From: Crossaster papposus
Lineage: Eukaryota; Echinodermata; Asteroidea; Velatida; Solasteridae
DNA length: 64,000 bases
Direction of reading: 5' to 3'
Assembly (NCBI GenBank): GCA_037893245.1
Contig: JBAIAA010000262.1
Location: 1,302,001 to 1,366,000, forward strand
Each line of letters starts with the position of its first letter. Within the stretch, counting starts at the first letter, position 1. The notes beneath the pieces are model-generated. The model was not told where the DNA came from. It saw only the letters and a list, made by a program, of their open reading frames with translations, and did not search any database. This document shows, in pieces, positions 1 through 64,000 of the stretch. A program made the position numbers and the translations under genes.

Positions 1-576
1 CACGCTCCCACTGCAACACTATGCGTAACTATTTTTAATGAAAATGAAATCACTATTAAGAAAATAATTATCCTGAGCAGACCGAGGTTGTGGTCATCCG
101 ACCTCTCCGTTACTGACCAAGAAAGTGTCTACTTCGTCACTCTGAGTCGAGTACCTCAAGTCATACCAAAAACTTGTTAGCAGAGCGAAATTTCGATCTT
201 CGGACCTCTGGGTTATGGGCCCATCACGCTTCCACTGCGCCACTCTGCTTCATGTGAATTTAGAAACAGCAAACAAAATTAAAGGAAAAAATTGTAAAAA
301 CATTCTAAAATATTTATTACATTTGAATAACAGTGAAGCAAAAATACCTCTTTAGCAGAACGAGGTTTTGGTCCTCGGACATCTTGGTTATGGGCCCAGC
401 ACGCTCCCACTGCTCCACTATGCGTAACTATTTTTAATGAAAATGAAATCACTATTAAGGAAATAATTATCCTGAGCAGACCGAGGTTGTGGTCATCCGA
501 CCTCTCCGTTACTGACCAAGAAAGTGTCTACTTCGTCACTCTGAGTCGAGTACCTTAAGTCATACCAAAAACTTGT

Positions 577-648
577 TAGCAGAGCAAGGTTTCGATCCTC
601 GGACCTCTGGGTTATGGGCCCAGCACGCTTCCACTGCGCCACTCTGCT
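577..648 (-). tRNA. tRNA-iMet (CAT)-like copy, one substitution
   Basis: C-type module with intact acceptor stem (AGCAGAG/CTCTGCT plus discriminator A), D arm, anticodon arm (CTGGG, loop CCCATAA, CCCAG) and variable loop AGGTC. The T stem has one change giving a G-U pair. Box A and box B are present, and a T5 run follows the 3' end after 5 nt. Expression is not known. Confidence 0.7.
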
Positions 649-3468
649 TCATGTGAATTTAGAAACAGCAAACAAAATTAAAGGAATAAATTGTAAAAAC
701 ATTCTAAAATATTTATTACATTTGAATAACAGTGAAGCAAAAATACCTCTTTAGCAGAACGAGGTTTTGGTCCTCGGACATCTTGGTTATGGGCCCAGCA
801 CGCTCCCACTGCTCCACTATGCGTAACTATTTTTAATGAAAATGAAATCACTATTAAGGAAATAATTATCCTGAGCAGACCGAGGTTGTGGTCATCCGAC
901 CTCTCCGTTACTGACCAAGAAAGTGTCTACTTCGTCACTCTGAGTAGAGTACCTCAAGTCATACCAAAAACTTGTTAGCAGAGCGATGTTTCAATCCTTG
1001 GACCTCTGGGTTATGGGCCCAGCACGCTACCACTGCGCCACTCTGCTTCATGTGAATTTAGAAACAACAAACACAATTAAAGCAGACATTCTAAAATATT
1101 TATTAAATTTGAATAACAGTGAAGCAAAAATACCTCTTTAGCAGAGCGAGGTTTGGGTCTACGGACCTCTGGGTTATGGGCCCAGCACGCTCCCACTGCA
1201 ACACTATGCGTAACTATTTTTAATGAAAATGAAATCACTATTAAGGAAATAATTATCCTGAGCAGACCGAGGTTGTGGTCATCCGACCTCTCCGTTACTG
1301 ACCAAGAAAGTGTCTACTTCGTCACTCTGAGTCGAGTACCTCAAGTCATACCAAAAACTTGTTAGCAGAGCGAAATTTCGATCTTCGGACCTCTGGGTTA
1401 TGGGCCCATCACGCTTCCACTGCGCCACTCTGCTTCATGTGAATTTAGAAACAGCAAACAAAATTAAAGGAAAAAATTGTAAAAACATTCTAAAATATTT
1501 ATTACATTTGAATAACAGTGAAGCAAAAATACCTCTTTAGCAGAACGAGGTTTTGGTCCTCGGACATCTTGGTTATGGGCCCAGCACGCTCCCACTGCTC
1601 CACTATGCGTAACTATTTTTAATGAAAATGAAATCACTATTAAGGAAATAATTATCCTGAGCAGACCGAGGTTGTGGTCATCCGACCTCTCCGTTACTGA
1701 CCAAGAAAGTGTCTACTTCGTCACTCTGAGTCGAGTACCTTAAGTCATACCAAAAACTTGTTAGCAGAGCAAGGTTTCGATCCTCGGACCTCTGGGTTAT
1801 GGGCCCAGCACGCGTCCACTGCGCCACTCTGCTTCATGTGAATTTAGAAACAACAAACAAAATTAAAGCAGACATTCTAAAAACATTCTAAAATATGTAT
1901 TACATTTGAATAACAGTGAAGCAAAAATACCTCTTTAGCCGAGCGAGGTTTTGGTCCTCGGACCTCTGTGTTATGGGCCCAGCACGCTCCCACTGCTCCA
2001 CTCTACTTCTTGTGAATTTAGAAACAGCAAACAAAATGAAAGCAGACATTCTAAAAACATTCTAAAATATTTATTAAATTTGAATAACAATGAAGCAAAA
2101 ATACCTCTTTAGCAGAGCGAGGTTTGGGTCTTCGGACCTCTGGATTATGGGCCCAGCACGCTCCCACTGCAACACTCTGCGTAACTATTTATTAATGAAA
2201 ATTAAATCACTATCAAGGAAATAATTATCCGGAGCAGACCGAGGTTGTGGTCATCCGACCTCTCCGTTACTGACCAAGAAAGTGTCTACTTCGTCACTCT
2301 GAGTAGAGTACCTCAAGTCATACCAAAAACTTGTTAGCACAGCGAGGTTTCAATCCTCGGACCTCTGGGTTATGGGCCCAGCACGCTTCCACTGCGCCAC
2401 TCTGCTTCATGTGAATTTAGAAACAACAAACACAATTAAAGCAGACATTCTAAAATATTTATTAAATTTGAATAACAGTGAAGCAAAAATACCTCTTTAG
2501 CAGAGCGAGGTTTGGGTCTACGGACCTCTGGGTTATGGGCCCAGCACGCTCCCACTGCAACACTATGCGCAACTATTTTTAATGAAAATGAAATCACTAT
2601 TAAGGAAATAATTATCCTGAGCAGACCGAAGTTGTGGTCATCCGACCTCTCCGTTACTGACCAAGAAAGTGTCTACTTCGTCACTCTGAGTCGAGTACCT
2701 CAAGTCATACCAAAAACTTGTTAGCAGAGCGAAATTTCGATCTTCGGACCTCTGGGTTATGGGCCCATCACGCTTCCACTGCGCCACTCTGCTTCATGTG
2801 AATTTAGAAACAGCAAACAAAATTAAAGGAAAAAATTGTAAAAACATTCTAAAATATTTATTACATTTGAATAACAGTGAAGCAAAAATACCTCTTTAGC
2901 AGAACGAGGTTTTGGTCCTCGGACATCTTGGTTATGGGCCCAGCACGCTCCCACTGCTCCACTATGCGTAACTATTTTTAATGAAAATGAAATCACTATT
3001 AAGGAAATAATTATCCTGAGCAGACCGAGGTTGTGGTCATCCGACCTCTCCGTTACTGACCAAGAAAGTGTCTACTTCGTCACTCTGAGTAGAGTACCTC
3101 AAGTCATACCAAAAACTTGTTAGCAGAGCGATGTTTCAATCCTTGGACCTCTGGGTTATGGGCCCAGCACGCTACCACTGCGCCACTCTGCTTCATGTGA
3201 ATTTAGAAACAACAAACAAAATTAAAGCAGACATTCTAAAAACATTCTAAAATATGTATTACATTTGAATAACAGTGAAGCAAAAATACCTCTTTAGCCG
3301 AGCGAGGTTTTGGTCCTCGGACCTCTGTGTTATGGGCCCAGCACGCTCCCACTGCTCCACTCTACTTCTTGTGAATTTAGAAACAGCAAACAAAATGAAA
3401 GCAGACATTCTAAAAACATTCTAAAATATTTATTAAATTTGAATAACAATGAAGCAAAAATACCTCTT

Positions 3469-3540
3469 TAGCAGAGCGAGGTTTGGGTCTTCGGACCTCT
3501 GGATTATGGGCCCAGCACGCTCCCACTGCAACACTCTGCG
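3469..3540 (-). pseudogene. A-module tRNA-iMet-like copy next to element 1
   Basis: A-type module: acceptor and anticodon arms resemble initiator tRNA-Met, but position 1 is C, two D-stem bases are changed, and the T loop lacks the TCGA core needed for box B. Its minus-strand 5' end lies 9 bp from the left end of element 1. It keeps a downstream T5 run, as A modules generally do. Probably not functional as a tRNA. Confidence 0.65.
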
Positions 3541-3549
3541 TAACTATTT

Positions 3550-3608
3550 GTACCGCTCAAGACAATGAGGGCGACAGAAGAAACATCAAGCCATTCGTGA
3601 TTCTGGCG
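3550..3608 (+). repeat. Element 1 split direct repeat A1
   Basis: 59 bp identical to 15318-15376. It begins GTACCGCTCAAGAC and ends at TTCTGGCG. It is directly preceded by satellite ACTATTT (3543-3549), the heptamer that also ends B1 at the internal B-A junction. Confidence 0.9.
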
Positions 3609-5989
3609 CCACGCCAGCGGGTGCTCTTGTGCCTCGCTGGCGATATTTGTGATTCCCTGTGGACTTTATGATATTTTGGGGAAATGGGATCGGGAGAGTA
3701 ATGTGTAGTTTGTCGGCATGTTGGAGTGGACCTGTTGGAAACAAATAGCTGGTAAGACTGTTCCTTTTATAAAATGGAAAGTGGGGTAGATCAGCTTGTC
3801 CTGCCAAATTACTTGGCGAGTTTTCTTGGTAAATTAAATGTTGTGTTGTGGGGTCCTACAGTACCAAAAGGTACGGCTGATATGTATAGTTTGATCATTC
3901 TTGTTAGTTCTTATTATTTTAGAGCTGTCGCAAAACTCCACATTTGCCGTATTTCATAGCACAGTACGGCGCTGGTACATGTATATGGTGGCATGATTTT
4001 CCAGTTGCGTCAATAACATGCTCGGGCGTTCGTTTTTATTGTGAGTCGACGGGCCGTGAAGTCAGCGCTGTCGGTGGGCACGCATGGTCGCGCTCGAGTA
4101 ATCTGTTCGGCATTTGTCGAATTCCAACGGTAGGGCGTGGCCGCAGAGTGCGCTCCCTATTACCCCTAGTCCCGGCTGCGTCGGCTGCTATAATTCTCTC
4201 GATCTCCGTTAGATGTTTCTGAACGCCAAACATGGACATCACGTACGATATTGTGGAGGTAAGATAGCCTCATCATTTATTTTTCGAAGATATTCGATTT
4301 ACAAATTGTGCTTATAGATTTCAAATTAAATAGGCGCAGGAACACAAGGCGTCATTGGCATGTTCAGAAGGTTAGCACAAAGTGGATAATATTGCATTCT
4401 CAAGGCTCCCGGTTGTACACAATAGCGGGTTGTGTTTACCCTAGCCTATATTTGATGCTCCATTGTTTTGAGATTTAACATATTTTTGCTAGCAAAAAAA
4501 AAAAAAAAAAAAAGGCCGACAAGCACTTTGAATTGTGATAGATGCCGATTTTATTGGAGATATATAAAAATATATATATATATGAAATAAATTCAGGATA
4601 CGAGTTATAATAACTTTGGCATATTTATTTATGGACGGACTGTTTCGTACCGTGTGACACTCATGTATATACACATATAATCTCATTTTATATAGTCGGG
4701 CGAAGTTTGGGATCGGCTCCATTTGATCCCTATTTTATACATTCCAAGCGTAGGTTACGGAACATGTGTTTATCACAGTGCATAGGTTTTAACAGCCAAG
4801 TGGCTATATAAGTCCGTGATATTATTTAAACACTGACAGCAGTTGGCACTCTTAGCCATTCCGTTTTTGCCCTTTTGTGTTCGTATTTCAATTATCAACG
4901 TCTTTCCATTTCCAGGAGAAGCCGGGCGCCTACGAGGGCATGCATAGAGACTAAGGCAAGCCCCGCTTCTAAAGGGCTTTGTGCTGCGTTCAAAATCTCT
5001 GCCAATTTTTTTGAGAACCTGCGTCAAGACGGCTGGGAAGACGTAGACCAGTTGTTCGGTCTGGACAAGGGGTGGCTCGGCCACCCTTTGACCCTGGCTC
5101 CGAAAGGGGGTAAGCGGCAAAATTTCGAGCGGCTGATGGCTCGTGTGGAGGCCGGCCCACTCGGTGAACAGTTTTTCTCGGCAGGCCGACCAAACTGCGT
5201 AAAACTCACACTGGCACCGGGGCTTGACACACCGGCACTGCAAGGATCAGGCCCCGGGTCTGACTCACAGTACGTCAACGGCTGACGTCGCCGTCCAGGG
5301 GACTGCATCCACCTCGGACTTACAGGTGAATTAAGTATTTATACATCAAGTCTAATTGCGATATACATGTGTAAAATGGTGAATAAGGCAGTGGTTTATA
5401 GTTGTGGTATTCTGGTACGTATGTGACATTCGCCGAAATTACAGACCCGATATATTATGGATATCGTGCTGGATAGGAATACATTTAACATTATTGGCAG
5501 ATGGAACAAAGACAATTCGTTGAGCTTAGATTTTGATCTGGAGTCCCTTACATCTTGAGTCTATACCCCAGAGACAATGTATAGAAATTATGGGGAAGGG
5601 TTTGAGAAACTCCATGAAAGTATCTGTAGCCAAATTTTGAGCCGATAGTTTGATTAAAAACCGAACACGTACTGTGAAATGTTATTTTGAGTTCGGTCTC
5701 GAACCTACAGGAGCGTGGATTGTAAAAGGTTAGATCTGAGGTTGGACCTCGAGGTTAAACGGAGATGGGCAATGATATTTGGCGAAATTATTATAAATCC
5801 ACACAAAACCCTGTGGAGATTCACTGAAAGTTTGTTTTGGTTTAGGGTCGGACCTAGAGATGAAAAGGGTCCGAATTGCTCAAGAAGAAACAGGATGAGT
5901 TAAATTTAGGTTTCTATTCAGAGCTTGCAATGACCTCATAAGGGGTAGGTTTCCATTAAATAATTTGATTAATCAGATTCAAATTCTTA
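3609..5989. other. Element 1 left body, no recognised gene; possible exon remnants
   Basis: No protein family recognised. Splice-like signals are present: a short ATG frame from 4232 ending GTGGAG with donor GTAAGA at 4259, an acceptor TTTCCAG ending at 4915, then a GC-richer open stretch to a donor CAG/GTGAAT at 5325/5326. Joining the first two in phase 0 reaches a stop after 12 further codons; the longer plus-strand frame over this stretch (stop ending at 5285) is in another phase. This could be a decayed untranslated leader, a degenerate gag or captured host sequence. Simple sequence: A20 at 4494-4513 and a TA run near 4561-4582. Confidence 0.3.
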
Positions 5990-8310
5990 GGTTGGACCTC
6001 GAGGCAGTAAGATAGGGGCTCCCGAAAGAAATTGTATAAGTTCAGATGCCGAGGTTGGACCTCAAGGGGGCAAAGGGCAGGGTCCTCCGAAATAAATCAT
6101 TTTAATAAATTGAGCAGATTCAGAGGTTGGACCTCGAAGTGGCAATGGGCTGGGTCCCTAAAAGAAAACTTGTAAACCAGAGTTAGTTCAGATTTCGAGG
6201 TTGGACCTCGTAGTGGCAAGGGGCTGGGTCCCTAAAAGAAAACTTGTAAACCAGAGTTAGTTCAGATTTCGAGGTTGGACCTCGTAGTGGCAAGGGGCTG
6301 GGTCCCTAAAAGAAAACTTGTAAACCAGAGTTAGTTCAGATTTCGAGGTTGGACCTCGTAGTGGCAAGGGGCTGGGTCCCCGAAAGAAATCATTTTAACT
6401 AAATTAAGTTCAGATTTCAAGGTTGGATCTCAAGGTCGCAAAGGGCTGGGTCCCCCAAAAGAAATACATTTGACCAAATTAAGTTCAGATGGTGAGGTGG
6501 GACCTCTTAGTGCCACGGGGCTGGGTCCCCAGAAAGAAATAACTTTGACCAATTAAGTTCAGATGCCGGAGTAGCACCTCGATAGGGCAAGGGGCATGGT
6601 TCCCAAAGGAAATCCTTAAAACTAAATTCAGTTCAGATTCCGAGGTTGGACCTCGAGATGGTAAGGGGCTGGGTCCTCAAAAAGAAATGTTGACCAAATT
6701 AGGTTCAGATGCCGAGGTGGGACCTCGAAGTGCCTCGGGACTGGGTCCCCAGAAAGTAATAATTTTGACCAAATTGAGTTCATATGACGAGGTGTGACCT
6801 CGAAGTGCCATGGGCTGGGTCCCCAGAAAGAAATAATTTTGACAAAATTGAGTTCAGGTGCCGAGGTGGGACCTCGAAGTGCCACGGGGCTGGGTCCCCA
6901 GAAAGAAATAATTTTGACCAAATTGAGTTCAGATGCCGAGGTGTACCCTCGGAGTGCCATGGGCTGGGTCCCCAGAAAGAAATAATTTTGACAAAATTGA
7001 GTTAATTTGCCGAGGTGGGACCTCGAAGTGCCACGGGGCTGGGTTCCCCTAAGGAAATAATTTTGACCAAATTGAGTTCAGATGCCGAGGTGGGACCTCG
7101 TAGTGGCAAGGGGCTGGGTCCCTAAAAGAAAACTTGTAAACCAGAGTTAGTTCAGATTTCGAGGTTGGACCTCGTAGTGGCAAGGGGCTGGGTCCCCGAA
7201 AGAAATCATTTTAACTAAATTAAGTTCAGATTTCAAGGTTGGATCTCAAGGTCGCAAAGGGCTGGGTCCCCCAAAAGAAATACATTTGACCAAATTAAGT
7301 TCAGATGGTGAGGTGGGACCTCTTAGTGCCACGGGGCTGGGTCCCCAGAAAGAAATAACTTTGACCAATTAAGTTCAGATGCCGGAGTAGCACCTCGATA
7401 GGGCAAGGGGCATGGTTCCCAAAGGAAATCCTTAAAACTAAATTCAGTTCAGATTCCGAGGTTGGACCTCGAGATGGTAAGGGGCTGGGTCCTCAAAAAG
7501 AAATGTTGACCAAATTAGGTTCAGATGCCGAGGTGGGACCTCGAAGTGCCTCGGGACTGGGTCCCCAGAAAGTAATAATTTTGACCAAATTGAGTTCATA
7601 TGACGAGGTGTGACCTCGAAGTGCCATGGGCTGGGTCCCCAGAAAGAAATAATTTTGACAAAATTGAGTTCAGGTGCCGAGGTGGGACCTCGAAGTGCCA
7701 CGGGGCTGGGTCCCCAGAAAGAAATAATTTTGACCAAATTGAGTTCAGATGCCGAGGTGTACCCTCGGAGTGCCATGGGCTGGGTCCCCAGAAAGAAATA
7801 ATTTTGACAAAATTGAGTTAATTTGCCGAGGTGGGACCTCGAAGTGCCACGGGGCTGGGTTCCCCTAAGGAAATAATTTTGACCAAATTGAGTTCAGATG
7901 CCGAGGTGGGACCTCGAAGTGCCACGGGGCTGGGTCCCAAAAAGAAAACCCTTCTATCTAATTAGGGTAAGATGCCGAGAGTGGACGTCGAGGTGCAAGG
8001 GCTAGGGTTCCCGAAATAAATCATTTTGATCAAATTAAGTTTAAAAGCCGAGGTGGGACCTCGAAGTGCGAGGGGATGGTCCCCAGAAAGAAAGCCTTTA
8101 ACCAAATTAAGTATAGATATCGAGGTTGGACCTCGAGTTGGCTATGGGCAGGGTTCCCGAAAGAAATCCTGTTATCCAAATTGAGTTCAGATGCCGAGTT
8201 TGGACCTCGGGGTAACAATAGGCAGGTCACCCCTGAAAGAAATGTGATATATCAAAGTAAAATGTTGATTTACCGGTTGAACCTCAAATAAATAGGTTGG
8301 GTTCCCTTTA
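5990..8310 (+). repeat. Minisatellite of about 74-76 bp with a hairpin core
   Basis: Tandem degenerate units of about 74-76 bp. Each carries a short inverted repeat of the form CGAGGT-3 nt-ACCTCG, then a GGGGCTGGGTCCCC-like block, an A-rich AGAAAGAAATAATTTTGACC-like segment, and AGTTCAGATG. Three successive units near 6191, 6265 and 6339 are spaced exactly 74 bp. Isolated older copies of the hairpin lie outside (near 5737 and 8745), suggesting spread from an ancestral site. Open frames here are repeat read-through, not proteins. Confidence 0.9.
6279..7910 (+). repeat. 816-bp tandem duplication inside the minisatellite
   Basis: The stretch from about 6279 to 7094 is repeated at about 7095 to 7910 with a constant 816-bp offset; the central parts (6628-7005 and 7444-7821) look identical. 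The duplication covers about eleven minisatellite units and is recent compared with divergence among units. Confidence 0.85.
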
Positions 8311-9879
8311 AGAAATCTGATAAATTTGGTAAATTCGAGGATGAGCCCAAAGAACACTGATTAAGTTTGGCGGGTCTATGCCCTTTGGGTCTGCAATTTA
8401 TGATATTTGCAGCGCCTTGAGTAAACACATGTTATGTACATATGCACAGTACCGATACGTGTGTGCGTCGGTGTGCGCGCATTGTTAGCGTTTCGGCAAA
8501 AAAAATCGGCTAAAATTAACAATGTTTCAATTTGTTTATAATAAGTGATGGCATACCAACATTTAGAGCCGAGACTGGGCCTTAGGATGCACTGGGCAGG
8601 AGGCCAAAATTGTTTGATTAATTAAGGTTCTGGGTCCCAATTTAATTCCCAAGGTAGCGTTGTTAAAGGATTCAAGTTTTAGGCGCCAAGGAAGTAAGAG
8701 GACGAGACCCTATATTTGAGTTTAGAGTTTCATGAATTTTGGATCCGAGGTTGGACCTCAAAGTATACTTGGGCTTTGCCCGAAATGGGTTATGGTGAGG
8801 AGATAAATCCCCGAATTTGACAGACAAATCATGAAGAACGGCCGCTACTGAGGAGTGTAAATTATTACTGGTATTTACCGATAAAATATATTCTGGGGTA
8901 GGGTACAGCCATATTTTCACGAGAGGTATTACCATTTTTAAATTAACAGGTGTACAGTGTACATGTACTCATAACAGTGATAATAACCGATTATACCAAG
9001 CTTAAAAGTCCAGAATGGGCTCTTTTAACCATTGTACCGTCCGGCATATTCAATTTCAATCACAGAAATGAAACTTAATATAGAGCTGCACCTGCTTTAA
9101 ATTGAGATGATGTATCTGAGCTCAAAAGGGCTGAGCCTCGATCAACTCATAGATTCATAGAAAATACATGAATTTGTGGGCTTGTCAATTACATTAACAA
9201 TAAATACACAGGTGATATTTGTAATATAAGGAGAATAAGATTGCATAGGCAGATGCATCTTCATGTACATGTATTTACATTTAAAACATCATGTAAAGTA
9301 ACTTGAAGAGGTCGAGTATCACTCGATGTCACCAGAGTGCCCTTAGCATTGCAGGCAACATAATAAATGTGGCTGCCCCCTTCCCCCTTATTCAAGTCAT
9401 TTTAATTTGGGTGTGCATGTACGTAGCTCTGGTAGCCTAGGGATACATGCAGGGCGGATGAACTCTTGTCTGTTTACTGGGGTGAGCCAAGACTGGTGTA
9501 TAGCAAAGAGATTACACTTGAAGCAATTTTGTAAAGAGCGATGAATGCGCTCTACATTGGTACGGGGGAGTTTAGGCAGATACAACAGTATTATCCATCC
9601 ACATTATTCTTGCCTGCTAGTGGCAGGTTCCGTCGGCGTTTGTTTGTTTGTTTGTTGGGGTGTTTGTTTGTTTGTTTATGTGAATGCAGGCGAAATCCGC
9701 TTTAGAGGTCTACAAACTAAGCGTCGGTAGCTTCTTAAAGGTTGTACTGTCACTGGCTACATGGCATATGTGATGTCCATTTTCAGGAAGTATGTTGACA
9801 AATTCACGCCACTGTCCATCGCCGACATCAAAGTAAAACAGATGTACGTAAATATTCTCACATAGTGGCACAAACAAAA
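8311..9879. other. Element 1 middle body, no recognised gene
   Basis: No coding region recognised on either strand. It holds one isolated minisatellite hairpin near 8745-8765 and a GTTT-rich microsatellite at about 9637-9680. Stop codons are frequent in all frames. Confidence 0.4.
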
Positions 9880-10139
9880 ACCATGGAATCCAAGGTTCAG
9901 GATATAGCTAAAGATTCTGACCAAGTATCGGGTAAAGATTCTGACAAACGGTCGAGGTTTGCCCTTTAAGCATTTAGGTTTGAACGCCCTTTTCGGCCGA
10001 CACTAAGGCGTGAAAGGGGTGTGTTTAGACCCTTGAAACAGGGCTAACGGCCTAGAGAAAATTCTCGGCAGGGCCAACATGGTCGGGGTTACGGTCAGAG
10101 AGAAAAACGTGTTAAATTGCAGGGTCGGTCAATTATGTA
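9880..10139 (+). pseudogene. Possible decayed Gag C-terminal basic region
   Basis: Read from the ATG at about 9880, this frame gives an acidic/serine stretch and then a basic, Arg/Gly-rich stretch containing FRFERPFRP and HGRGYGQREKR, broken by in-frame stops. A basic Arg/Gly-rich nucleic-acid-binding tail upstream of the polymerase is common in DIRS-order Gag proteins, and the position 0.7 kb before the RT remnant fits. No zinc knuckle was seen. The assignment rests on composition and position only. Confidence 0.35.
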
Positions 10140-10854
10140 AGCATTGGAAGATCATTTTAACATAAAATGCTGACAGGTTTGGTCTATGGGCTTTCGATGA
10201 TGTGTTATTTACACCCTTTTGTAGGCGGAGAAAGTATATGGCTTCTCCTTTATAGTGCATAGCCTTGGGTATTTTAATATTTGGCTGGAACATATACAAT
10301 GCGTTAATAAACTTATTTATGAGCACGAGATGCATTTTGTTGGCCTTGGAGAGGCATAGAGATAGATATCAAAATAAAACTATGAATGACGTAAAAGAAT
10401 CATGTTTTCTAGTTGTCCTTTCTCGGGGGCACATACGTATAACGTTCCTACCCTTTTAATACTAATAGTAACTTTGCGATACTTAGCAGTACTGAAGCGT
10501 CACGCGTGGGAGAGGTCCTTTATTCGGTGTTTCGATCTCTTCGCAGCCCAAGCAGGAGAGCTAGAAAGAAAATCCTCAGTTGGGTGGACATATCCGGGAA
10601 ACCCGTAAGTGTACCTAGCTTGTGTGCGCCAAACCCTCTAGATGTCATTTCAGGTCGTGCCTTGCCAGATGTGCAAGCACTGCTGTTTAGAGATCCAGAC
10701 CATTTAGTAGCTGGATAGCCTCGAATGTGAGCCCGGATCTTTGGGACTTCGTTTTTTGGTGAGTCGTGGATGGTCCCGTTGTATCTAGATGGCAGCGTAA
10801 AGGGGTAGAGATTAAAAGAAAGAACAATATATATAAACAAATCTACAATTCGAC

Positions 10855-12327: not shown

Positions 12328-12584
12328 TACGTCTGTCTAAGGTGGGACATATGGAGCTCCGTGAATATTCATCAGTTAAGGGTTACCAGCCAAATATTGA
12401 GGGGCTGCCCTTTGAACTCCGGGCCTTTAAATTTTTCTTTCCCGACTCCACAAAGGATCAGATGAAATTTCCGCCGTCAAAGTTCAACAATGTCCTCCTC
12501 ATGTCGGGCTCCATGGGTAGGAGCCTTAAAGGTTTCAGCTGGCCTTCAAATCTTAATGTGCAGCTGGTCGCTAACTGGAGTTAG
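12324..12584 (+). pseudogene. Polymerase C-terminal extension, possibly SGNH-hydrolase-like remnant
   Basis: This frame overlaps the stop of the preceding fragment by four bases and continues the polymerase: LSKVGH, GLPFELRAFKFFFPDS, then NNVLLMSGSMGRSLKGFSWP. Some DIRS-order polymerases carry a GDSL/SGNH-like domain after RNase H. LLMSGSM resembles its block I, with the catalytic-site Asp missing. The frame stops at 12584, so only the start of such a domain would remain. The link to the RNase H tail is more secure than the SGNH reading. Confidence 0.4.
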
Positions 12585-51444: not shown

Positions 51445-51480
<36 letters not shown>

Positions 51481-51506
51481 ATTAAAGTGGGCGGGTTCTA
51501 CGCCGT
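51091..51506. other. Spacer between A2 and B2 with a (GTA)12 microsatellite
   Basis: AT-rich, without a recognised gene. Holds a perfect GTA12 tract at 51445-51480, which produces a poly-Tyr frame on the minus strand that I do not regard as coding. Confidence 0.7.
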
Positions 51507-51580
51507 TTGCTGCAGCTCGCACAATACCAAAATAATTGGGTATGCTGTGTTTTGTTTGTGTATACGATGATTTAAATGAT
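51507..51580 (+). repeat. Element 2 split direct repeat B2 (right end)
   Basis: Right terminal copy of B. It is followed by AA and then satellite TAATTATTCTGAGCAG, so the satellite resumes 12 bp before a B module (51593-51664). Confidence 0.92.
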
Positions 51581-51592
51581 AATAATTATTCT

Positions 51593-51664
51593 GAGCAGAC
51601 CGAGGTTGTGGTCATCCGAACTCTCGGTTACTGACCAAGAAAGTGTCTACTTCGTCACTCTGAG
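51593..51664 (-). pseudogene. Representative B module: ancient, highly diverged tRNA-iMet copy
   Basis: Most units carry this 72-bp minus-strand segment. An ungapped hand alignment of a B module (the block-1 variant) with the consensus initiator tRNA gives 50 of 72 identical positions, including CAGAGTG near the 5' end, AGAGGTC at the variable loop and TCTGCT at the 3' end. The anticodon position reads AGT, several stems no longer pair, box B is lost, and there is no T5 run immediately downstream. It is very similar among units, so it is being homogenised along with the array. Confidence 0.7.
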
Positions 51665-54600: not shown

Positions 54601-54745
54601 TTTTAATGAAAATGAAATCACTATCAAGGAAATAATTATCCTGAGCAGACCGAGGTTGTGGTCATCCGAACTCTCGGTTACTGACCAAGAAAGTGTCTAC
54701 TTCGTCACTCTGAGTCGAGTACCTCAAGTGATACCAAAAACTTGT

Positions 54746-54817
54746 TAGCAGAGCGAGGTTTCGATCCTCGGACCTCTGGGTTATGGGCCCAGCACGCTTC
54801 CACTGCGCCACTCTGCT
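54746..54817 (-). tRNA. tRNA-iMet (CAT), exact consensus copy
   Basis: 72 nt reading as a complete eukaryotic initiator tRNA: acceptor stem AGCAGAG/CTCTGCT with the A1:U72 pair and discriminator A; D stem GCGC/GCGT; anticodon stem CTGGG/CCCAG with the three G-C pairs typical of initiators and loop CCCATAA; variable loop AGGTC; T stem CGAGG/CCTCG with loop ATCGAAA (A54, A60). Box A is TGGCGCAGTGG, box B is GGATCGAAACC. No CCA is encoded. A T5 terminator (plus-strand A5 at 54736-54740) follows after 5 nt. It delivers initiator methionine if expressed; whether Pol III transcribes satellite copies cannot be seen. Confidence 0.88.
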
Positions 54818-57800
54818 TCATGTGAATTAAGAAACAGAAAACAAAATGAAAGCAGACATTCTAAAAACATTCTAAAATATTTATTACATTTGAATAACAG
54901 TGAAGCAAAAATACCTCTTTATCAGAGCGAGGTTTTGGTCTTCGGACATCTTGGTTATGGGCCCAGCACGCTCCAACTGAAACACTCTGCGTAACTATTT
55001 TTAATGAAAATGAAATCACTATCAAGGAAATAATTATTCTGAGCAGACCGAGGTTGTGGTCATCCGAACTCTCGGTTACTGACCAAGAAAGTGTCTACTT
55101 CGTCACTCTGAGTCGAGTACCTCAAGTCATACCAAAAACTTGTTAGCAGAGCGAGGTTTCGATCTTTGGACATCTTGGTTAAGGGCCCAGCACGCTTCCA
55201 TTGCGCCACTCTACTTCATGTAAAGTTAGAAACAGCAAACAAAATGAAAGCAGACATTCTAAAAACATTCTAAAATATTTATTACATTTGAATAACAGTG
55301 AAGCAAAAATACCTCTTTAGCAGAGCGAGGTTTTGGTCTTCGGTCTCTGGGTTATGGGCCCAGCACGCTCCCACTGCAACACTCTGCGTAACTATTTTTA
55401 ATGAAAATGAAATCACTATCAAGGAAATAATTATTCTGAGCAGACCGAGGTTGTGGTCATCCGAACTCTCGGTTACTGACCAAGAAAGTGTCTACTTCGT
55501 CACTCTGAGTCGAGTACCTCAAGTCATACCAAAAACTTGTTAGCAGAGCGAAATGAAAATGAAAATGAAATCACTATCAAGGACATAATTATCCTGAGCA
55601 GACTGAGGTTGTGGTCATCCGAAATATCGGTTACTGGCCAAGAAAGTGTCTACTTCGTCACTCTGAGTCGAGTACCTCAAGTCATACCAAAAACGTGTTA
55701 GCAGAGCGAGGTTTCGATCTTCGGACCTTGGGTTAAGGGCCCAGCACGCTTCCATTGCGCCACTCTACTTCATGTAAAGTTAGAAACAGCAAACAAAATG
55801 AAAGCAGACATTCTAAAAACATTGTAAAATATGTATTACGTTTGAATAACAGTGAAGCAAATATACCTCTTTAGCAGAGCGAGGTTTTGGTCTTCGGACC
55901 TCTGGGTTAAGGGCCCAGCACGCTCCCACTGAACCACTCTGCGTAACTATTTTTAATGAAAATGAAATCACTATCAAGGAAATAATTATCCTGAGCAGAC
56001 CGAGGTTGTGGTCATCCGAACTCTCGGTTACTGACCAAGAAAGTGTCTACTTCGTCACTCTGAGTCGAGTACCTCAAGTCATACCAAAAACTTGTTAGCA
56101 GAGCGAGGTTTCGATCCTCGGACCTCTGGGTTATGGGCCCAGCACGCTTCCACTGCGCCACTCTGTTTCATGTAAATTTAGAAACAGCAAACAAATTGAA
56201 AGCAGACATTCTAAAAACCTTCTAAAATATTTATTAAATTTGAATAACATTTAAGCAAAAATCCCTCTTTAGCAGAGCGAGGTTTTGGTCTTCGGACCTC
56301 TGGGTTATGGGCCCAGCACGCTCCCACTGCAACACTCTGCGTAACTATTGTTAATGAAATTGAAATCACTATCAAGGAAATAATTATCCTGAGCAGACCG
56401 AGGTTGTGGTCATCCGAACTCTCGGTTACTGACCAAGAAAGTGTCTACTTCGTCACTCTGAGTCGAGTACCTCAAGTCATACGAAAAACCTGTTAGCAGA
56501 GCGAAATGGAAATGACAATGAAATCACTATCAAGGACATAATTATCCTGAGCAGACCGAGGTTGTGGTCATCCGAAATATCGGTTACTGGCCAAGAAAGT
56601 GTCTACTTTGTCACTTTGAGTCGAGTACCTCAAGTCATACCAAAAACTTGTTAGCAGAGCGAGGTTTCTATCTTTGGACATCTTGGTTAAGGGCCCAGCA
56701 CGCTTCCACTGCGCCACTCTACTTCATGAAAAAGTTAGAAACAGCAAACAAAATGAAAGCAGACATTCTAAAAACATTCAAAAATATGTATTAAATTTGA
56801 ATAACCTTTAAGCAAAAATCCCTCTTTAGCAGAGCGAGGTTTTGGTCTTCGGACCTCTGGGTTATGGGCCCAGCACGCTTCCACTGCAACACTCTGCGTA
56901 ACTATTTTTAATGAAAATGAAATCACTATCAAGGAAATAATTATCCTGAGCAGACCGAGGTTGTGGTCATTCGAACTCTCGGTTACTGACCAAGAAAGTG
57001 TCTACTTCGTCACTCTGTGTCGAGTACCTCAAGCCATACCCAAAACTTGTTAGCAGAGCGAGGTTTCGATCCTCGGACCTCTGGGTTATGGGCCCAGCAC
57101 GCTTCCACTGCGCCGCTCTACTTCATGTGAATTTAGAAACAGCAAACAAAATGAAAGCAGACATTCTAAAAACATTCTAAAATATGTATTACATTTGAAT
57201 AACAGTGAAGCAAAAATACCTCTTTAGCAGAGCGAGGTTTTTGGTCTTCGGACCTCTTGGTTAAGGGCCCAGCACGCTCCCACTGCACCACTCTGCGTAA
57301 CTATTTTTAATGAAAATGAAATCACTATCAAGGACATAATTATCCTTAGCAGACCGTAGGTTGCGGTCATCCGAAATATCGGTTACTGGCCAAGAAAGTG
57401 TCTACTTCGTCACTCTGAGTCGAGTACCTCAAGTCATACCAACAACTTGTTAGCAGAGCCAGGTTTCGATTCTCGGACCTCTGGGTTATGGGCCCAGCAC
57501 GCTTCCACTGCGCCACTCTGCTTCATGTGAATTTAGAAACAGCAAACAAAATTAAAGCAGACATTCTAAAAACATTCTAAAATATGTATTACATTTGAAT
57601 AACAGTGAAGCAAAAATACCTCTTTAGCAGAGCGAGGTTTTGGTCCTCGGACATCTGGGTTATGGGCCCAGCACGCTCCCACTGCTCCACTCTACTTCAT
57701 GTAAATTTAGAAACAGCAAACAAAATGAAAGCAGACATTCTAAAAACCTTCTAAAATATTTATTAAATTTGAATAACATTTAAGCAAAAATCCCTCTTTA

Positions 57801-59216
57801 GCAGAGCGAGGTTTTGGTCTTCGGACCTCTGGGTTATGGGCCCAGCACGCTCCCACTGCAACACTCTGCGTAACTATTTTTAATGAAAATGAAATCACTA
57901 TCAAGGAAATAATTATTCTGAGCAGACCGAGCTTGTGGTCATCCGAACTCTCGGTTACTGACCAAGAAAGTGTCTACTTCGTCACTCTGAGTCGAATACC
58001 TCAAGTCATACCAAACACTTGTTAGCAGAGCGAGGTTTCGATCTTTGGACATCTTGGTTAAGGGCCCAGCACGCTTCCACTGCGCCACTCTACTTCATGT
58101 AAAGTTAGAAACAGCAAACAAAATGAAAGCAGACATTCTAAAAACATTCTAAAATATGTATTAAATTTGAATAACAGTTAAGCAAAAATCCCTCTTTAGC
58201 AGAGCGAGGTTTTGGTCTTCGGACCTCTGGGTTATGGGCCCAGCACGCTCCCACTGCAACACTCTGCGTAACTATTTTTAATAAAAATGAAATCACTATC
58301 AAGGAAATAATTATCCTGAGCAGACCGAGGTTGTGGTCATCCGAACTCTCGGTTACTGAACAAGAAAGTGTCTACTTCGTCACTCTGAGTCGAGTACCTC
58401 AAGTCATACCAAAAACTTGTTAGCAGAGCGATATTTCGATCTTCGGACCTCTGGGTTAAGGGCCCAGCACGCTTCCACTGCGCCACTCTACTTCATGTAA
58501 ATTTAGAAACAGCAAACAAAATGAAAGCAGACATTCTAAAAACATTCTAAAATATTTATTAAATTTGAATAACAGTGAAGCAAAAATACCTCTTTAGCAG
58601 AGCGAGGTTTTTGTCTTCGGACCTCTGGGTTAAGGGCCCAGCACGCTCTCACTGCACCACTCTGCGTAACTATTTTTAATGAAAATGAAATCACTATCAA
58701 TGACATAATTATCCTTAGCAGACCGAGGTTTCGGTCATCCGAAATATCGGTTCCTGGCCAAGAAAGTATCTACTTCGTCACTCTGAGTCGAGTACCTCAA
58801 GTCATACCAAAAACTTGTTAGCAGAGCCATGTTTCGATTCTCGGACCTCTGGGTTATGGGCCCAGCACGCTTCCACTGCGCCACTCTGCTTCATGTGAAT
58901 TTAGAAACAGCAAACAAAATTAAAGCAGACATTCTAAAAACATTCTAAAATATGTATTACATTTGAATAACAGTGAAGCAAAAATACCTCTTTAGCAGAG
59001 CGAGGTTTTGGTCCTCGGACATCTGGGTTATGGGCCCAGCACGCTCCCACTGCAACACTCTGCGTAACTATTTTTAATGAAAATGAAATCACTATCAAGG
59101 ACATAATTATCCTTAGCAGACCGAGGTTGCGGTCATCCGAAATATCGGTTACTGACCAAGAAAGTGTATACTTCGTCACTCTGAGTCGAGTACCTCAAGT
59201 CATACCAAAAACTTGT

Positions 59217-59288
59217 TAGCAGAGCGAGGTTTCGATCTTCGGACCTCTGGGTTAAGGGCCCAGCACGCTTCCACTGCGCCACTCTACT
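59217..59288 (-). tRNA. Initiator-tRNA body with anticodon CTT
   Basis: Plus-strand TTAAGGGCCC replaces TTATGGGCCC, so the anticodon loop is CCCTTAA with anticodon CTT (reads Lys AAG if charged and used). Otherwise two changes: a U-G pair in the acceptor stem and an A-C mismatch in the T stem that also alters the first base of box B. T5 terminator present. Many copies in this block share the CTT loop. Probably a variant pseudogene. Confidence 0.5.
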
Positions 59289-59614
59289 TCATGTAAATTT
59301 AGAAACAGCAAACAAAATGAAAGCAGACATTCTAAAAACATTCTAAAATATTTATTAAATTTGAATAACAGTTAAGCAAACATACCTCTTTAGCAGAGCG
59401 AGGTTTTGGTCTTCGGACCTCTGGGTTATGGGCCCAGCACGCTCCCACTGCAACACTCTGCGTAACTATCTTTCCTGAAAATGAAATCACTATCAAGGAA
59501 ATAATTATCCTGAGCAGACCGAGGTTGTGGTCATCCGAACTCTCGGTTACTTACCAAGAAAGTGTATACTTCGTCACTCTGAGTCGAGTACCTCAAGTCA
59601 TACCAAAAACTTGT

Positions 59615-59686
59615 TAGCAGAGCGAGGTTTCGATCCTCGGACCTCTGGGTTATGGGCCCAGCACGCTTCAACTGCGCCACTCTGCT
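59615..59686 (-). tRNA. tRNA-iMet (CAT)-like copy, D-loop change
   Basis: One difference from the consensus, in the D loop (GG to TG), which would weaken the D-loop/T-loop contact and box A. Stems and T5 terminator intact. Confidence 0.6.
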
Positions 59687-61347
59687 TCATGTGAATTTTG
59701 AAACAGAAAACAAAATTAAAGCAGACATTCTAAAAACATTCTAAAATATGTATTACATTGGAATAACAGTGAAGCAAAAAAAACTCTTTAGCAGAGCGAG
59801 GTTTTGGTTCTCGGACATCTGGGTTATGGGCCCAGCACGCTTCCACTGCGCCACTCTGCTTCATGTACATTAAGAAACAGCAAACAAAATGAAAGCAGAC
59901 ATTCTAAAAACATTCTAAAATATTTATTAAATTTGAATAACAGTGAAGCAAAAATACCTCTTTAGCAGAGCGAGGTTTTGGTCTTCGGACCTCTGGGTTA
60001 TGGGCCCTGCACGCTCCCACTGCAACACTCTGCGTAACTATTTTCAATGAAAATGAAATCACTAACAAGGAAATAATTATTCTGAGCAGACCGAAGTTGT
60101 GGTCATCCGAACTCTCGGTTACTGACCAAGAAAGTGTCTACTTCGTCACTCTGAGTCGAGTACCTCAAGTCATACCAAAAACTTGTTAGCAGAGCGAAAT
60201 GAAAATGAAAATGAAATCACTATCAAGGACATAATTATCCTGAGCAGACCGAGGTTGTGGTCATCCGAAATATCGGTTACTGGCCAAGAAAGTGTCTACT
60301 TCGTCACTCTGAGTCGGGTACCTCAAGTCATACCAAAAACGTGTTAGCAGAGCGAGGTTTCGATCTTTGGACATCTGGGTTAAGGGCCCAGCACGCTTCC
60401 ACTGCGCCACTCTACTTCATGTAAAGTTAGAAACAGCAAACAAAATGAAAGCAGACATTCTAAAAACATTCTAAAATATTCATTAAATTTGAATAACAGT
60501 GATGCAAAAATACCTCTTTAGCAGAGCGAGGTTTTGGTCTTCGGACATCTGGGTTATGGGCCCAGCACGCTCCCACTGCAACACTCTGCTTCATGTGAAT
60601 TTAGAAACAGCAAACAAAATGAAAGCAGACATTCTAAAAACATTCTAAAATATGTATTACATTTGAATAACAGTGAAGCAAAAATACCTCTTTAGCAGAG
60701 CGAGGTTTTGGTCTTCGGACCTCTGGGTTATGGGCCCAGCACGCTCCCACTGCAACACTCTGCGTAACAACTTGTTAGCAGAGCCAGGTTTCGATTCTCG
60801 GACCTCTGGGTTATGGGCCCAGCACGCTTCCACTGCGCCACTCTGCTTGATGTGAATTTAGAAACAGCAAACAAAATGAAAGCAGACATTCTAAAAACAT
60901 TCTAAAATATGTATTACATTTGAATAACAGTGAAGCAAAAATACCTCTTTAGCAGAGCGAGGTTTTGGTCCTCGGACATCTGGGTTATGGGCCCAGCACG
61001 CTCCCACTGCTCCACTCTACTTCATGTAAATTTAGAAACAGCAAACAAAATGAAAGCAGACATTCTAAAAACCTTCTAAAATATTTATTAAATTTGAATA
61101 ACATTTAAGCAAAAATCCCTCTTTAGCAGAGCGAGGTTTTGGTCTTCGTACCTCTGGGTTATGGGCCCAGCACGCTCCCACTGCAACACTCTGCGTAATT
61201 ATTTTTAATGAAAATGAAATCACTATCAAGGAAATAATTATCCTGAGCAGACCGAGGTTGTGGTCATCCGAACTCTCGGTTACTGACCAAGAAAGTGTCT
61301 ACTTCGTCACTCTGAGTCGAGTACCTCAAGCCATACCAAAAACTTGT

Positions 61348-61419
61348 TAGCAGAGCGAGGTTTCGATCCTCGGACCTCTGGGTTATGGGCCCAGCACGCT
61401 TCCACTGCGCCACTCTGCT
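61348..61419 (-). tRNA. tRNA-iMet (CAT), exact consensus copy
   Basis: Identical over 72 nt to 54746-54817, with all stems paired, box A and box B intact, and a T5 terminator (A5 at 61338-61342 on the plus strand). It lies in the first copy of the 1003-bp duplication. Confidence 0.88.
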
Positions 61420-62340
61420 TCATGTGAATTCAGAAACAGCAAACAAAATGAAAGCAGACATTCTCAAAACATTCTAAAATATGTATTACATTTGAATAAC
61501 AGTTAAGCAACAATCCCTCTTTAGCAGAGCGAGGTTTTGGTCTTCGGACATCTGGGTTATGGGCCCAGCACGCTCCCACTGCAACACTCTGCTTCATGTG
61601 AATTTAGAAACAGCAAACAAAATGAAAGCAGACATTCTAAAAACATTCTAAAATATGTATTACATTTGAATAACAGTGAAGCAAAAATACCTCTTTAGCA
61701 GAGCGAGGTTTTGGTCTTCGGACCTCTGGGTTATGGGCCCAGCACGCTCCCACTGCAACACTCTGCGTAACAACTTGTTAGCAGAGCCAGGTTTCGATTC
61801 TCGGACCTCTGGGTTATGGGCCCAGCACGCTTCCACTGCGCCACTCTGCTTGATGTGAATTTAGAAACAGCAAACAAAATGAAAGCAGACATTCTAAAAA
61901 CATTCTAAAATATGTATTACATTTGAATAACAGTGAAGCAAAAATACCTCTTTAGCAGAGCGAGGTTTTGGTCCTCGGACATCTGGGTTATGGGCCCAGC
62001 ACGCTCCCACTGCTCCACTCTACTTCATGTAAATTTAGAAACAGCAAACAAAATGAAAGCAGACATTCTAAAAACCTTCTAAAATATTTATTAAATTTGA
62101 ATAACATTTAAGCAAAAATCCCTCTTTAGCAGAGCGAGGTTTTGGTCTTCGGACCTCTGGGTTATGGGCCCAGCACGCTCCCACTGCAACACTCTGCGTA
62201 ATTATTTTTAATGAAAATGAAATCACTATCAAGGAAATAATTATCCTGAGCAGACCGAGGTTGTGGTCATCCGAACTCTCGGTTACTGACCAAGAAAGTG
62301 TCTACTTCGTCACTCTGAGTCGAGTACCTCAAGCCATACC

Positions 62341-62345
62341 AAAAA
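62341..62345 (-). terminator. RNA polymerase III T5 terminator (representative)
   Basis: Plus-strand AAAAA, read as TTTTT on the minus strand, starts 5 nt after the discriminator base of the tRNA at 62351-62422. The same run follows each exact-consensus C module and nearly all G-U class copies. In the degenerate C class it is interrupted to give GTTGTTGG. Confidence 0.75.
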
Positions 62346-62350
62346 CTTGT

Positions 62351-62422
62351 TAGCAGAGCGAGGTTTCGATCCTCGGACCTCTGGGTTATGGGCCCAGCAC
62401 GCTTCCACTGCGCCACTCTGCT
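62351..62422 (-). tRNA. tRNA-iMet (CAT), exact consensus copy
   Basis: Identical over 72 nt to 54746-54817 and 61348-61419 and in the second copy of the 1003-bp duplication. T5 terminator at 62341-62345. Used here to measure unit geometry: A at 62127, B at 62248, C at 62351, next A at 62525. Confidence 0.88.
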
Positions 62423-63309
62423 TCATGTGAATTTAGAAACAGCAAACAAAATGAAAGCAGACATTCTCAAAACATTCAAAAATATGTATTACATTTGAAT
62501 AACAGTGAAGCAAAAATACCTCTTTGGCAGAGAGAGGTTTTGGTCTTCGGACCTCTGGGTTATGGGCCCAGCACGTTCCCACTGCAACACTCTGCGTAAC
62601 TATTTTTAATGAAAATAAAATCACTATCAAGGAAATAATTATTCTGAGCAGACCGAGCTTGTGGTCATCCGAACTCTCGGTTACTGACCAAGAAAGTGTC
62701 TACTTCGTCACTCTGAGTCGAGTACCTCAAGTCATACCAAAAACTTGTTAGCAGAGCGAAATGAAAATGAAAATGAAATCACTATCAAGGACATAATTAT
62801 CCTGAGCAGACCGAGGTTGTGATCATCCGAAATATTGGTTACTGGCCAAGAAAGTGTCTACTTCGTCACTCTGAGTCGAGTACCTCAAGTCATACCAAGA
62901 ACGTGTTAGCAGAGCGAGGTTTCGATCTTCGGACCTTGGGTTAAGGGCCCAACACGCTTCCACTGCGCCACTCTACTTCATGTAAAGTTAGAAACAGCAA
63001 ACAAAATGAAAGCAGACATTCTAAAAACATTATAAAATATTTATTAAATTTGAATAACAGTTAAGCAAAAAAACCTCTTTAGCAGAGCGAGGTTTTGGTC
63101 TTCGGACCTCTGGGTTATGGGCCCAGCACGCTCCCATTGCAACACTCTGCGTAACTATTTTTAATGAAAATGAAAATGAAATCATTATCAAGGAAATAAT
63201 TATCCTGAGCAGACCGAGGTTGTGGTCATCCGAACTCTCGGTTAGTGACCAAGAAAGTATCTACTTCGTCACTCTGAGTCGAGTACCTCAAGTCATACCA
63301 AAAACTTGT

Positions 63310-63381
63310 TAGCAGAGCGAGGTTTCGATCCTCGGACCTCTGGGTTATGGGCCCAGCACGCTTCCACTGCGCCACTCTGCT
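63310..63381 (-). tRNA. tRNA-iMet (CAT), exact consensus copy
   Basis: Fourth copy identical to the initiator consensus, with T5 terminator (A5 at 63300-63304 on the plus strand). It lies outside the 1003-bp duplication, so exact copies are not all the product of one local event. Confidence 0.88.
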
Positions 63382-64000
63382 TCATGTGAATTTAGAAACA
63401 GCAAACAAAATGAAAGCAGACATTCTAAAAACATTCTAAAATATGTATTACATTTGAATAACAGTGAAGCAAAAATACCTCTTTAGCAGAGCGAGGTTTT
63501 GGTCTTCGGACCTCTGGGTTAAGCGCCCAGCACGCTCCCACTGCACCACTCTGCGTAACTATTTTTAATGAAAATGAAATCACTATCAAGGACATAATTA
63601 TCCTAAGCAGACCGAGGTTGTGGTCATCCGAACTCTCGGTTACTGACCAAGAAAGTGTCTACTTCGTCACTCTGAGTCGAGTACCTCAAGTCATACCAAA
63701 AACTTGTTAGCAGAGACAGGTTTCGATCCTCGGACCTCTGTGTTAAGGGCCCAGCACGTTTCCACTGCGCCACTCTACTTCATGTAAAGTTAGAAACAGC
63801 AAACAAAATGAAAGCAGACATTCTAAAAACATTCTAAAATATTTATTAAATTTGAATAACAGTTAAGCAAAAATCCCTCTTTAGCAGAGCGAGGTTTTTC
63901 GTCTTCGGACCTCTGGGTTATGGGCCCAGCACGCTCCCACTGCAACACTCTGCGTAACTATTTTTAATGAAAATGAAATCACTATCAAGGAAATAATTAT

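Follow-up and report, generated by a model that had tools for sequence, protein, structure and literature searches.

A satellite built from initiator tRNA-Met genes in the sea star Crossaster papposus is probably maintained by satellite dynamics

Is a long tandem array of initiator tRNA-Met modules kept for the tRNAs it could supply, or is it a satellite descended from a tRNA gene? The question is raised by a 64,000-nucleotide stretch of Crossaster papposus DNA (the window) on contig JBAIAA010000262.1, here C262, for which the original prediction had allowed both answers. The mitochondrial COX1 is compatible with the echinoderm code, and the tRNA order ahead of COX1, which we take as a lead, presumably agrees with that of sea stars.

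Results

Array blocks, unit finding, and junction mapping divide the window as follows:

1..3552, minus strand: array block 1, running on leftward past the window (TRF, unit BLAST, junction mapping)
3553..15637, no strand assigned: 12.1-kb insertion splitting the array (TRF, junction mapping)
15638..47423, minus strand: array block 2, with a long regular run at 21857-38252 (TRF, unit BLAST, junction mapping)
47424..51580, plus strand: 4.2-kb insertion, a DIRS-like retroelement (ORF domains, junction mapping)
51581..64000, minus strand: array block 3, running on rightward past the window (TRF, unit BLAST, junction mapping)

The tRNA-module array as such is confirmed. It amounts to 47,527 bp, or 119 lengths of 398 bp, by module spacing and to 47,758 bp when the three blocks between the mapped junctions (3552/15638 and 47423/51581) are summed, close to the 47.7 kb and roughly 120 units first estimated. 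TRF gave a period of 398-399 bp with 174- and 158-bp periods nested inside. By module scan the window has 110 C, 113 A, 100 B, and 29 b modules, a total of 352 tRNA-like copies (each labeled by the nearest of four references; converted C/B hybrids may fall either way), and all 352 lie on the minus strand, as predicted for head-to-tail units with three 72-bp modules. Over 264,000 bp read on C262, the satellite covers 224,399 bp and 1,626 modules occupy the minus strand, while the plus strand of the same 264 kb has none, its closest 72-mer showing 37 mismatches. The modules recur on this contig at 1.080 Mb. C262 therefore has what defines satellite DNA, long head-to-tail arrays of a single unit in one orientation.

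Each 398-bp unit consists of C (72 bp), a 31-bp linker, A (72 bp), a 49-bp linker, B (72 bp), and a 102-bp linker, giving module spacings of 103/121/174, as in this example:

27110..27507, minus strand: example 398-bp unit (sequence and module spacings), with C at 27436-27507, A at 27333-27404, and B at 27212-27283, then the next unit

Initiator tRNAs are marked by A1-U72, the CAU anticodon, a GGG:CCC anticodon stem, and A54/A60 in the T-loop, and direct reading of the C consensus shows all of them. This consensus is that of an initiator tRNA-Met gene and matches exactly the gene found on another contig, C885. B differs from C at 7/72 sites and A at 22/72; the latter is nevertheless tRNA-derived, since 10,000 shuffles gave a minimum of 38 mismatches to C. 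A whole 72-nt tRNA is present in each of A, B, and C, and the spacers are unlike one another, the three linkers sharing chance-level matches only.

The original prediction was to fall if the C modules gave no initiator-tRNA score; they reach up to 58.7 bits with Rfam RF00005. ARAGORN found 55 tRNAs in the window, minus strand throughout (47 Met-CAT, 6 Lys-CTT, 1 Leu, and 1 Ile), and RF00005 gave 135 matches above the gathering score, also minus only and spread over all module types, the 58.7 bits being the top score. The minimum-energy fold of C differs from the cloverleaf (four single modules folded, one of them 1 base out of register), a result given no weight here.

We counted a C module as intact when it had all 21 standard pairs, A1-U72, the CAT anticodon, and box B, with a T4 run no more than 30 nt away. 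By this definition 117/501 C modules are fully intact in the 264 kb of C262 and 26/110 in the window, so the description of the best copies as complete genes, Pol III boxes and terminators included, is right for a minority and fails for the rest. All 21 pairs are present in 162 of the 501, A1-U72 in 482, and CAT in 397, the other 104 having a different anticodon. The box B pattern occurs in 0/483 A, 1/438 B, and 0/204 b modules. Exact consensus copies are more frequent for A (149/483 in the 264 kb, 40/113 in the window) than for C (82/501 and 4/110, respectively). The window copies of C identical to the C885 gene, and one example of anticodon decay, are as follows:

54746..54817, minus strand: C module equal to the C885 initiator tRNA-Met gene (identity; 58.7 bits with RF00005, ARAGORN)
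61348..61419, minus strand: C module equal to the C885 gene (identity; Rfam)
62351..62422, minus strand: C module equal to the C885 gene (identity; Rfam)
63310..63381, minus strand: C module equal to the C885 gene (identity; Rfam)
58421..58492, minus strand: initiator body with anticodon CTT, called tRNA-Lys by ARAGORN (ARAGORN, Rfam)

Across the whole genome, allowing up to 3 mismatches to each consensus gave 8,965 C and 11,198 A modules, and 1,281 of the C copies are exact. Chance is excluded, as the reversed control of the C 72-mer gave 0 matches against these 8,965. By extrapolation, the satellite would total 6-7 Mb. Further arrays of the same modules with their own variants are found on contigs C146 and C79; C146 has a higher-order period of 10,454 bp and, in one stretch, both module orientations, and C79 carries variant units. 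The satellite is thus homogenised into local subfamilies and higher-order repeats on these contigs. A 572-bp tRNA-Lys array on C479 was considered as kin of a 572-bp sub-period here and rejected, since 3 kb of it proved free of C, A, and B modules.

Both insertions have clean junctions of different kinds. For the 12.1-kb insertion, which contains a 74-bp tandem repeat at 6037-8209 (TRF), unit positions on the two flanks overlap by 10 bp, resembling a target-site duplication. The 4.2-kb insertion encodes a reverse transcriptase (ORF at 47990-49651) and a Dam domain (ORF at 49588-50340); the array picks up in phase after it with a unit-position overlap of just 2 bp, and no clear target-site duplication was found at its junctions.

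For diversity on C262 we started from 419 triplets in C-A-B or C-A-b order (386 + 33) and kept the 260 units that were free of gaps and spaced at exactly 103/121/174, so that any unit with an indel and any C module outside such a triplet is excluded; both the 216 distinct sequences and the 61 lineages (>3% apart) used below were drawn from these 260. So many distinct sequences, the two insertions with their differing junctions, and the subfamilies that vary from contig to contig all argue against an assembler having inflated a small tandem cluster, an explanation to which we give almost no credence.

Across the 61 lineages, diversity was.098 for C,.072 for link1,.045 for A,.053 for link2,.078 for B, and.076 for link3. 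With the 9 sites where B or b differs from C removed, C remained at.080 versus.068 for the linkers (P that C is lower,.81), and at these non-diagnostic sites on C262 we found no purifying selection on C when set against the linkers. That the C modules on C262 are held by selection for tRNA function was accordingly rejected, C diversity not being below that of the linkers, and A, although dead, has kept its sequence better than C. At the 9 diagnostic sites, 179/212 variant cells among the 216 distinct units hold the B or b base, and we infer from this pattern that gene conversion may have brought B-type bases into C modules. Broken stem pairs in C numbered 116 against 97.8 expected from random hits, diagnostic sites included.

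At first sight the functional sites of C (boxes A and B and the anticodon) seemed more variable than the rest of C (permutation P of.04-.05), which would suggest selection against activity. This reading was rejected; the excess looks partly conversion-like, because part of it sits at sites where B or b differs from C, and the other 14/18 functional sites have a diversity of.102 versus.074. C to T changes stand at.016 at CpG and.024 elsewhere, and this absence of excess CpG decay gives no sign of methylation silencing.

The lowest-diversity 100-bp segment begins at unit position 83 or 103 (permutation P of.02 and.01). This A-link2 part could be a protein-binding domain if the satellite were structural (centromeric, pericentromeric, or a boundary), with Pol III modules recruiting TFIIIC or condensin-type factors to organise chromatin. 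The large size of the satellite and its higher-order repeats are consistent with such a role. However, low diversity in A is also expected if its divergence simply keeps it from exchanging with B and C, and A, B, and b almost entirely lack the box B pattern; we regard a structural role as quite unlikely.

On C885 the initiator gene is identical at 72/72 sites between two units, whereas the spacer differs by about 8% (64 mismatches and 31 gap columns against 698 matches), which is purifying selection on the gene relative to its flanks. Because the genes are identical while the spacers differ, these are likely the working genes, and the functional initiator tRNA is probably made from ordinary genes like those of this cluster. 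No A or B modules occur in the 3 kb read there. Homology of the satellite linkers to C885 spacers was rejected, with chance-level matches past the gene and ~10 flanking bases, and the step from gene cluster to satellite unit is therefore not seen.

Discussion

We conclude, with a probability of roughly 75%, that this is a satellite derived from initiator tRNA-Met genes and maintained by satellite dynamics rather than for tRNAs. Origin from a tRNA gene, one of the possibilities first proposed, is supported, and upkeep by satellite dynamics is probable because C is as diverse as the spacers on C262. The proposed supply of initiator tRNA finds no support as the reason the array is kept, since C is not conserved above the linkers and less well preserved than A, 104/501 anticodons are changed, only 117/501 modules are intact, and a separate conserved cluster exists on C885. 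In the mechanism we propose, three tRNA copies of unequal age would make up the unit: A, now dead, would be the oldest, B a younger copy whose box B is broken, and C a copy equal to the working gene. Together with their spacers they would have been amplified as one 398-bp repeat, and in 174-bp and longer combinations too. Unequal exchange and conversion would then keep the array, and the intact C copies would be recent leftovers that Pol III may or may not still read.

Several observations sit against this reading. The C consensus and the C885 gene agree at every site, though A and B have drifted; with equal age and an equal lack of constraint, C should also have drifted, and its exactness needs a younger C, re-seeding from genes by conversion, or former constraint as candidate explanations. 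The 1,281 exact copies, the CpGs without excess decay, and the linkers without homology to C885 spacers belong here as well. So does the small C146 sample of 7 distinct units, in which diversity in C (.010) is lower than in B (.019), link2 (.020), and link3 (.038), similar to that in A (.009), and higher than in link1 (0).

Exact copies, fully intact modules with box B and T-run, undecayed CpGs, and a C less diverse than three other parts on C146 could also mean that intact C copies are massively transcribed by Pol III in the growing oocyte or early embryo. Zebrafish offers a parallel, as the available part of PMC11417395 describes maternal tRNAs encoded in highly repetitive clusters and later-expressed ones encoded by isolated genes. 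The lack of constraint on C262 C modules relative to spacers or dead A, the altered anticodons, and the conserved C885 cluster make stage-specific supply unlikely. A long shot is that the megabase satellite is a dormant reserve of >1,000 perfect initiator tRNA genes that would become accessible in the oocyte or embryo only; were this true, chromatin control of the satellite would set the initiator tRNA level and hence global translation.

We read the array as most likely a satellite that came from tRNA genes and was homogenised with no selection for their function; as such it is kin to the Pol III satellites of newts and frogs and differs from them by its many intact gene copies. A 3.18-kb tandem repeat of Xenopus laevis holds initiator tRNA genes, as the array here does, but it carries several tRNA genes in a far longer unit and is transcribed. 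The amphibian satellites described in the available part of PMC10702118 likewise have a tandem unit with a tRNA-like, Pol III-type sequence, the unit being ~360 nt in Cynops PolIII/TAN, ~250 nt in Rana/polIII, ~200 nt in Hydromantes Hy/polIII, and longer in Xenopus OAX. There the newt satellite is traced to tRNA-Glu by retroposition and a tRNA origin of Hy/polIII is called questionable. Those units have one diverged tRNA-like part, whereas here there are three initiator modules in graded decay, one class of which equals a tRNA gene in 1,281 copies (PMC10702118, in part).

The long arm of zebrafish chromosome 4 is, like our satellite, repeat-rich with thousands of clustered tRNA genes and isolated copies elsewhere; it encodes many tRNA species with repeat-encoded products in eggs, whereas here there is one species, and on C262 no constraint is seen (PMC11417395, in part). 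Entamoeba also has tRNA genes in each tandem unit, but nearly all its tRNA genes lie in 25 array types, against one mostly decayed tRNA here (PMC2652664, in part). The human 1q23.3 VNTR is a tRNA-bearing macrosatellite for which a boundary role was proposed; unlike ours, it has a 7.3-kb CTCF-binding unit, 9-43 copies per allele, and tRNA genes conserved with mouse (PMC4041453, in part). Harttia catfish satellites share tRNA gene-derived sequences but are composites with SINE and LINE parts (PMC11955569, in part). No initiator-tRNA satellite was among the literature matches listed, from a search outside which most subscription journals lie.

The finding means that a highly constrained gene can turn into satellite DNA and yet leave >1,000 perfect copies. 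It also confounds tRNA gene counts by annotation programs, with 8,965 near-perfect 'genes' by sequence, and it offers a natural test of how a cell copes when potential initiator tRNA genes are in great excess and some of them combine an initiator body with a changed anticodon.

Anatomy and extent of the array

The window covers bases 1302001 to 1366000 of C262, a 3.16-Mb contig in an assembly of 1.023 Gb and 1,841 contigs. TRF and the junctions delimit three array blocks separated by two insertions.

Features of the window
1-3552, modules on the minus strand: array block 1 (TRF, junctions)
3553-15637: insertion 1, 12 kb, with unit positions at its ends overlapping by 10 bp (junction analysis)
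15638-47423, modules on the minus strand: array block 2 (TRF, junctions)
47424-51580: insertion 2, with an RVT_1 ORF at 47990-49651 and a Dam-domain ORF at 49588-50340 (domains, junctions)
51581-64000, modules on the minus strand: array block 3 (TRF, junctions)

The array amounts to 47,758 bp when summed between junctions and 47,527 bp when derived from module spacing, in agreement with the ∼47.7 kb of the original prediction. Each full unit of 398 bp carries three tRNA-like modules of 72 bp, which all lie on the minus strand in the order C, 31 bp (link1), A, 49 bp (link2), B, 102 bp (link3), and the next C. Module C is a complete initiator tRNA-Met. Compared to C, module A differs at 22 of 72 positions, B at 7, and a variant of B, b, at 6. 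In places, the array consists of a 174-bp sub-unit or of longer combinations (e.g., 572 and 797 bp).

In a 264-kb scan (the window plus 100 kb either side on C262), the array occupies 224,399 bp and holds 1,626 modules (501 C, 483 A, 438 B, and 204 b) in a single orientation. A 3-kb sample at 1.080 Mb of the contig is array as well, and the array is absent from another 3-kb sample at 1.700 Mb. The latter (C262:1700001-1703000) contains what resembles, by eye, a different tandem repeat and has no tRNA modules. Among the matches listed or samples read, the unit was found on C262, C79, and C146 (places 2.77 to 6.57 Mb), the last with a higher-order period of 10,454 bp. A sample from C146 (6355001-6358500) has modules in both orientations, in contrast to C262. 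Three aligned units from C79 differ from the C262 consensus at 2 to 8 sites in C, 4 in A, and 7 in B.

Genome-wide, we counted 8,965 copies of C and 11,198 of A within 3 mismatches, and none for the reversed controls. At this mismatch limit, 224 kb of array hold 420 A and 291 C modules; if the density is the same elsewhere, the array would total 6.0 to 6.9 Mb by extrapolation, to which more diverged subfamilies would add.

Initiator identity and Pol III elements

The C modules score as tRNAs: counting all module types, Rfam gave 135 tRNA matches in the window and ARAGORN 55 tRNAs (47 Met, 6 Lys, 1 Leu, and 1 Ile), all on the minus strand, with RF00005 being a general tRNA model that is blind to the initiator type. 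The hallmarks of a eukaryotic initiator tRNA are present in the C consensus, namely A1-U72, a CAU anticodon, a GGG:CCC anticodon stem, and an AUCGAAA T-loop. A T5 run starts 5 bp downstream of C in the consensus unit. The expectation that the best copies are complete genes with Pol III boxes and terminators is borne out for part of the C modules of the 264 kb, a T4 run lying within 30 nt in 375/501 and box B being matched by pattern in 232/501. Box B reads GGACCAAAACC in module B versus GGATCGAAACC in C, and the pattern was matched in 1/438 B, 0/204 b, and 0/483 A modules.

Diversity within the array

Diversity was calculated from 260 ungapped C-A-B units, reduced to 61 lineages more than 3% apart, and was.098 for C,.072 for link1,.045 for A,.053 for link2,.078 for B, and.076 for link3. 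Without the nine diagnostic sites, at which B or b differs from C, the values were.080 for C and.068 for the linkers (P for C being lower,.81), so the tRNA module is no better conserved than the spacers. Within C, stems are more diverse than loops (.109 versus.079), and broken stem pairs number 116 versus 97.8 expected from random hits, a count that includes the diagnostic sites, so that conversion contributes. Of the 212 variant cells of C at the diagnostic sites, 179 show the base found in B or b, as conversion between modules would give.

Exact consensus copies make up 149/483 of A and 82/501 of C modules in the 264 kb, and 40/113 versus 4/110 in the window; the best preserved module is A, which cannot be a tRNA. 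The CAT anticodon is lost in 104/501 C modules of the 264 kb (66 CTT, 21 AAT, and 17 others), some of them in amplified families. In the window, 18/110 are altered, with families carrying CTT, AAT, or CCT on an initiator body (e.g., 58421-58492 and 59217-59288). Judged by the sequence of this contig, initiator tRNA supply, one of the roles originally proposed, is unlikely to be what maintains the array, given that C is no less diverse than the spacers, A is better kept, and so many C modules have lost CAT.

The lowest-diversity 100-bp stretch of the C262 unit lies at positions about 83-203, over the dead A module and link2 (permutation P,.01 to.02). This part could be a candidate protein-binding domain or could merely have escaped exchange with B and C.

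In a 20-kb sample of C146, with only 7 distinct units and 47 C modules, diversity was.010 for C,.020 for link2,.019 for B,.038 for link3,.009 for A, and 0 for link1. Here C is less diverse than link2, B, and link3, though not less than A or link1, and 13/47 C modules are exact. C may thus be under selection in that array.

Likely working genes on another contig

Contig C885 carries initiator genes identical to the C consensus and about 841 to 858 bp apart (3 kb read), with at least five exact places among the matches listed. Apart from one partial 54-bp tRNA-like match, no A or B modules were found in these 3 kb. Two complete units agree at 72/72 gene positions, while their spacers align with 64 mismatches and 31 gap columns alongside 698 matches. 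The third gene has the identical sequence as well, with upstream flanks that differ at 34 to 43 sites per 560. A pattern including the 5′ flank occurs at three places genome-wide, every one on C885. This cluster likely represents working initiator genes. That the C consensus equals these genes while A and B have drifted is a puzzle; C may be younger, may have been re-seeded from the genes by conversion, or may formerly have been under selection.

Insertions into the array

Beyond both insertions the array is back in phase, indicating that a continuous array predates them. Insertion 1 contains a 74-bp tandem repeat at 6037-8209, and none of four ORFs tested from it matched Pfam. ORFs near 10.4 to 12.6 kb look, by eye, like decayed reverse transcriptase. 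Unit positions at insertion 2 overlap by just 2 bp, leaving no clear target-site duplication, and its RVT_1 and Dam domains are those of DIRS-type elements; we presume it to be a DIRS-like retroelement.

Other sequence in the assembly

The sequence GGTTCGAATCC occurs 34,060 times genome-wide versus 156 for its reversed control. Three samples from contig C1 (L001, L002, and L005) resemble, by eye, copies of one tRNA-headed SINE. Contig C8 (>5 Mb; L048 and L050) carries bacterial-type cytochrome oxidase (COX1) genes, which suggests bacterial DNA in the assembly, perhaps from an associate. COX1 on contig C1841 is open under codes 4, 5, 9, and 13 and has Asn at conserved positions, such as in the conserved COX1 motif STNHKDIG, under code 9 only, which points to an echinoderm-type mitochondrial code. 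The tRNA order upstream presumably agrees with that of sea stars.

Comparison with other tRNA repeats

Known tandem repeats containing tRNA include newt PolIII/TAN, Rana/polIII, Xenopus OAX, and Hy/polIII, the tRNA origin of the last being termed questionable (PMC10702118), and also Harttia satellites (PMC11955569), Entamoeba arrays (PMC2652664), and a human tRNA VNTR (PMC4041453). Products of zebrafish tRNA clusters are described as present in eggs (PMC11417395). Reported numbers reach 45,225 tRNA genes and pseudogenes in a surveyed mammal, and large clusters in protists reportedly extend beyond any one clade (PMC2888827); for a sea cucumber, 1,032 tRNA genes are reported, 90 of them Met (PMC8580430).

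The C. papposus genome has a second tRNA array, of tRNA-Lys(TTT), which was seen on contigs C479 and C424 and numbers 791 copies genome-wide at up to 3 mismatches. These arrays are large and tandem, with a unit of about 572 or 770 bp, and four units sampled (3 kb, L041) show at most one gene difference and 0 to 3 spacer differences.

The array on C262 is a real, large, tRNA-gene-derived satellite. It is unusual in its initiator tRNA type and in its number of perfect copies, with 1,281 exact C modules genome-wide.
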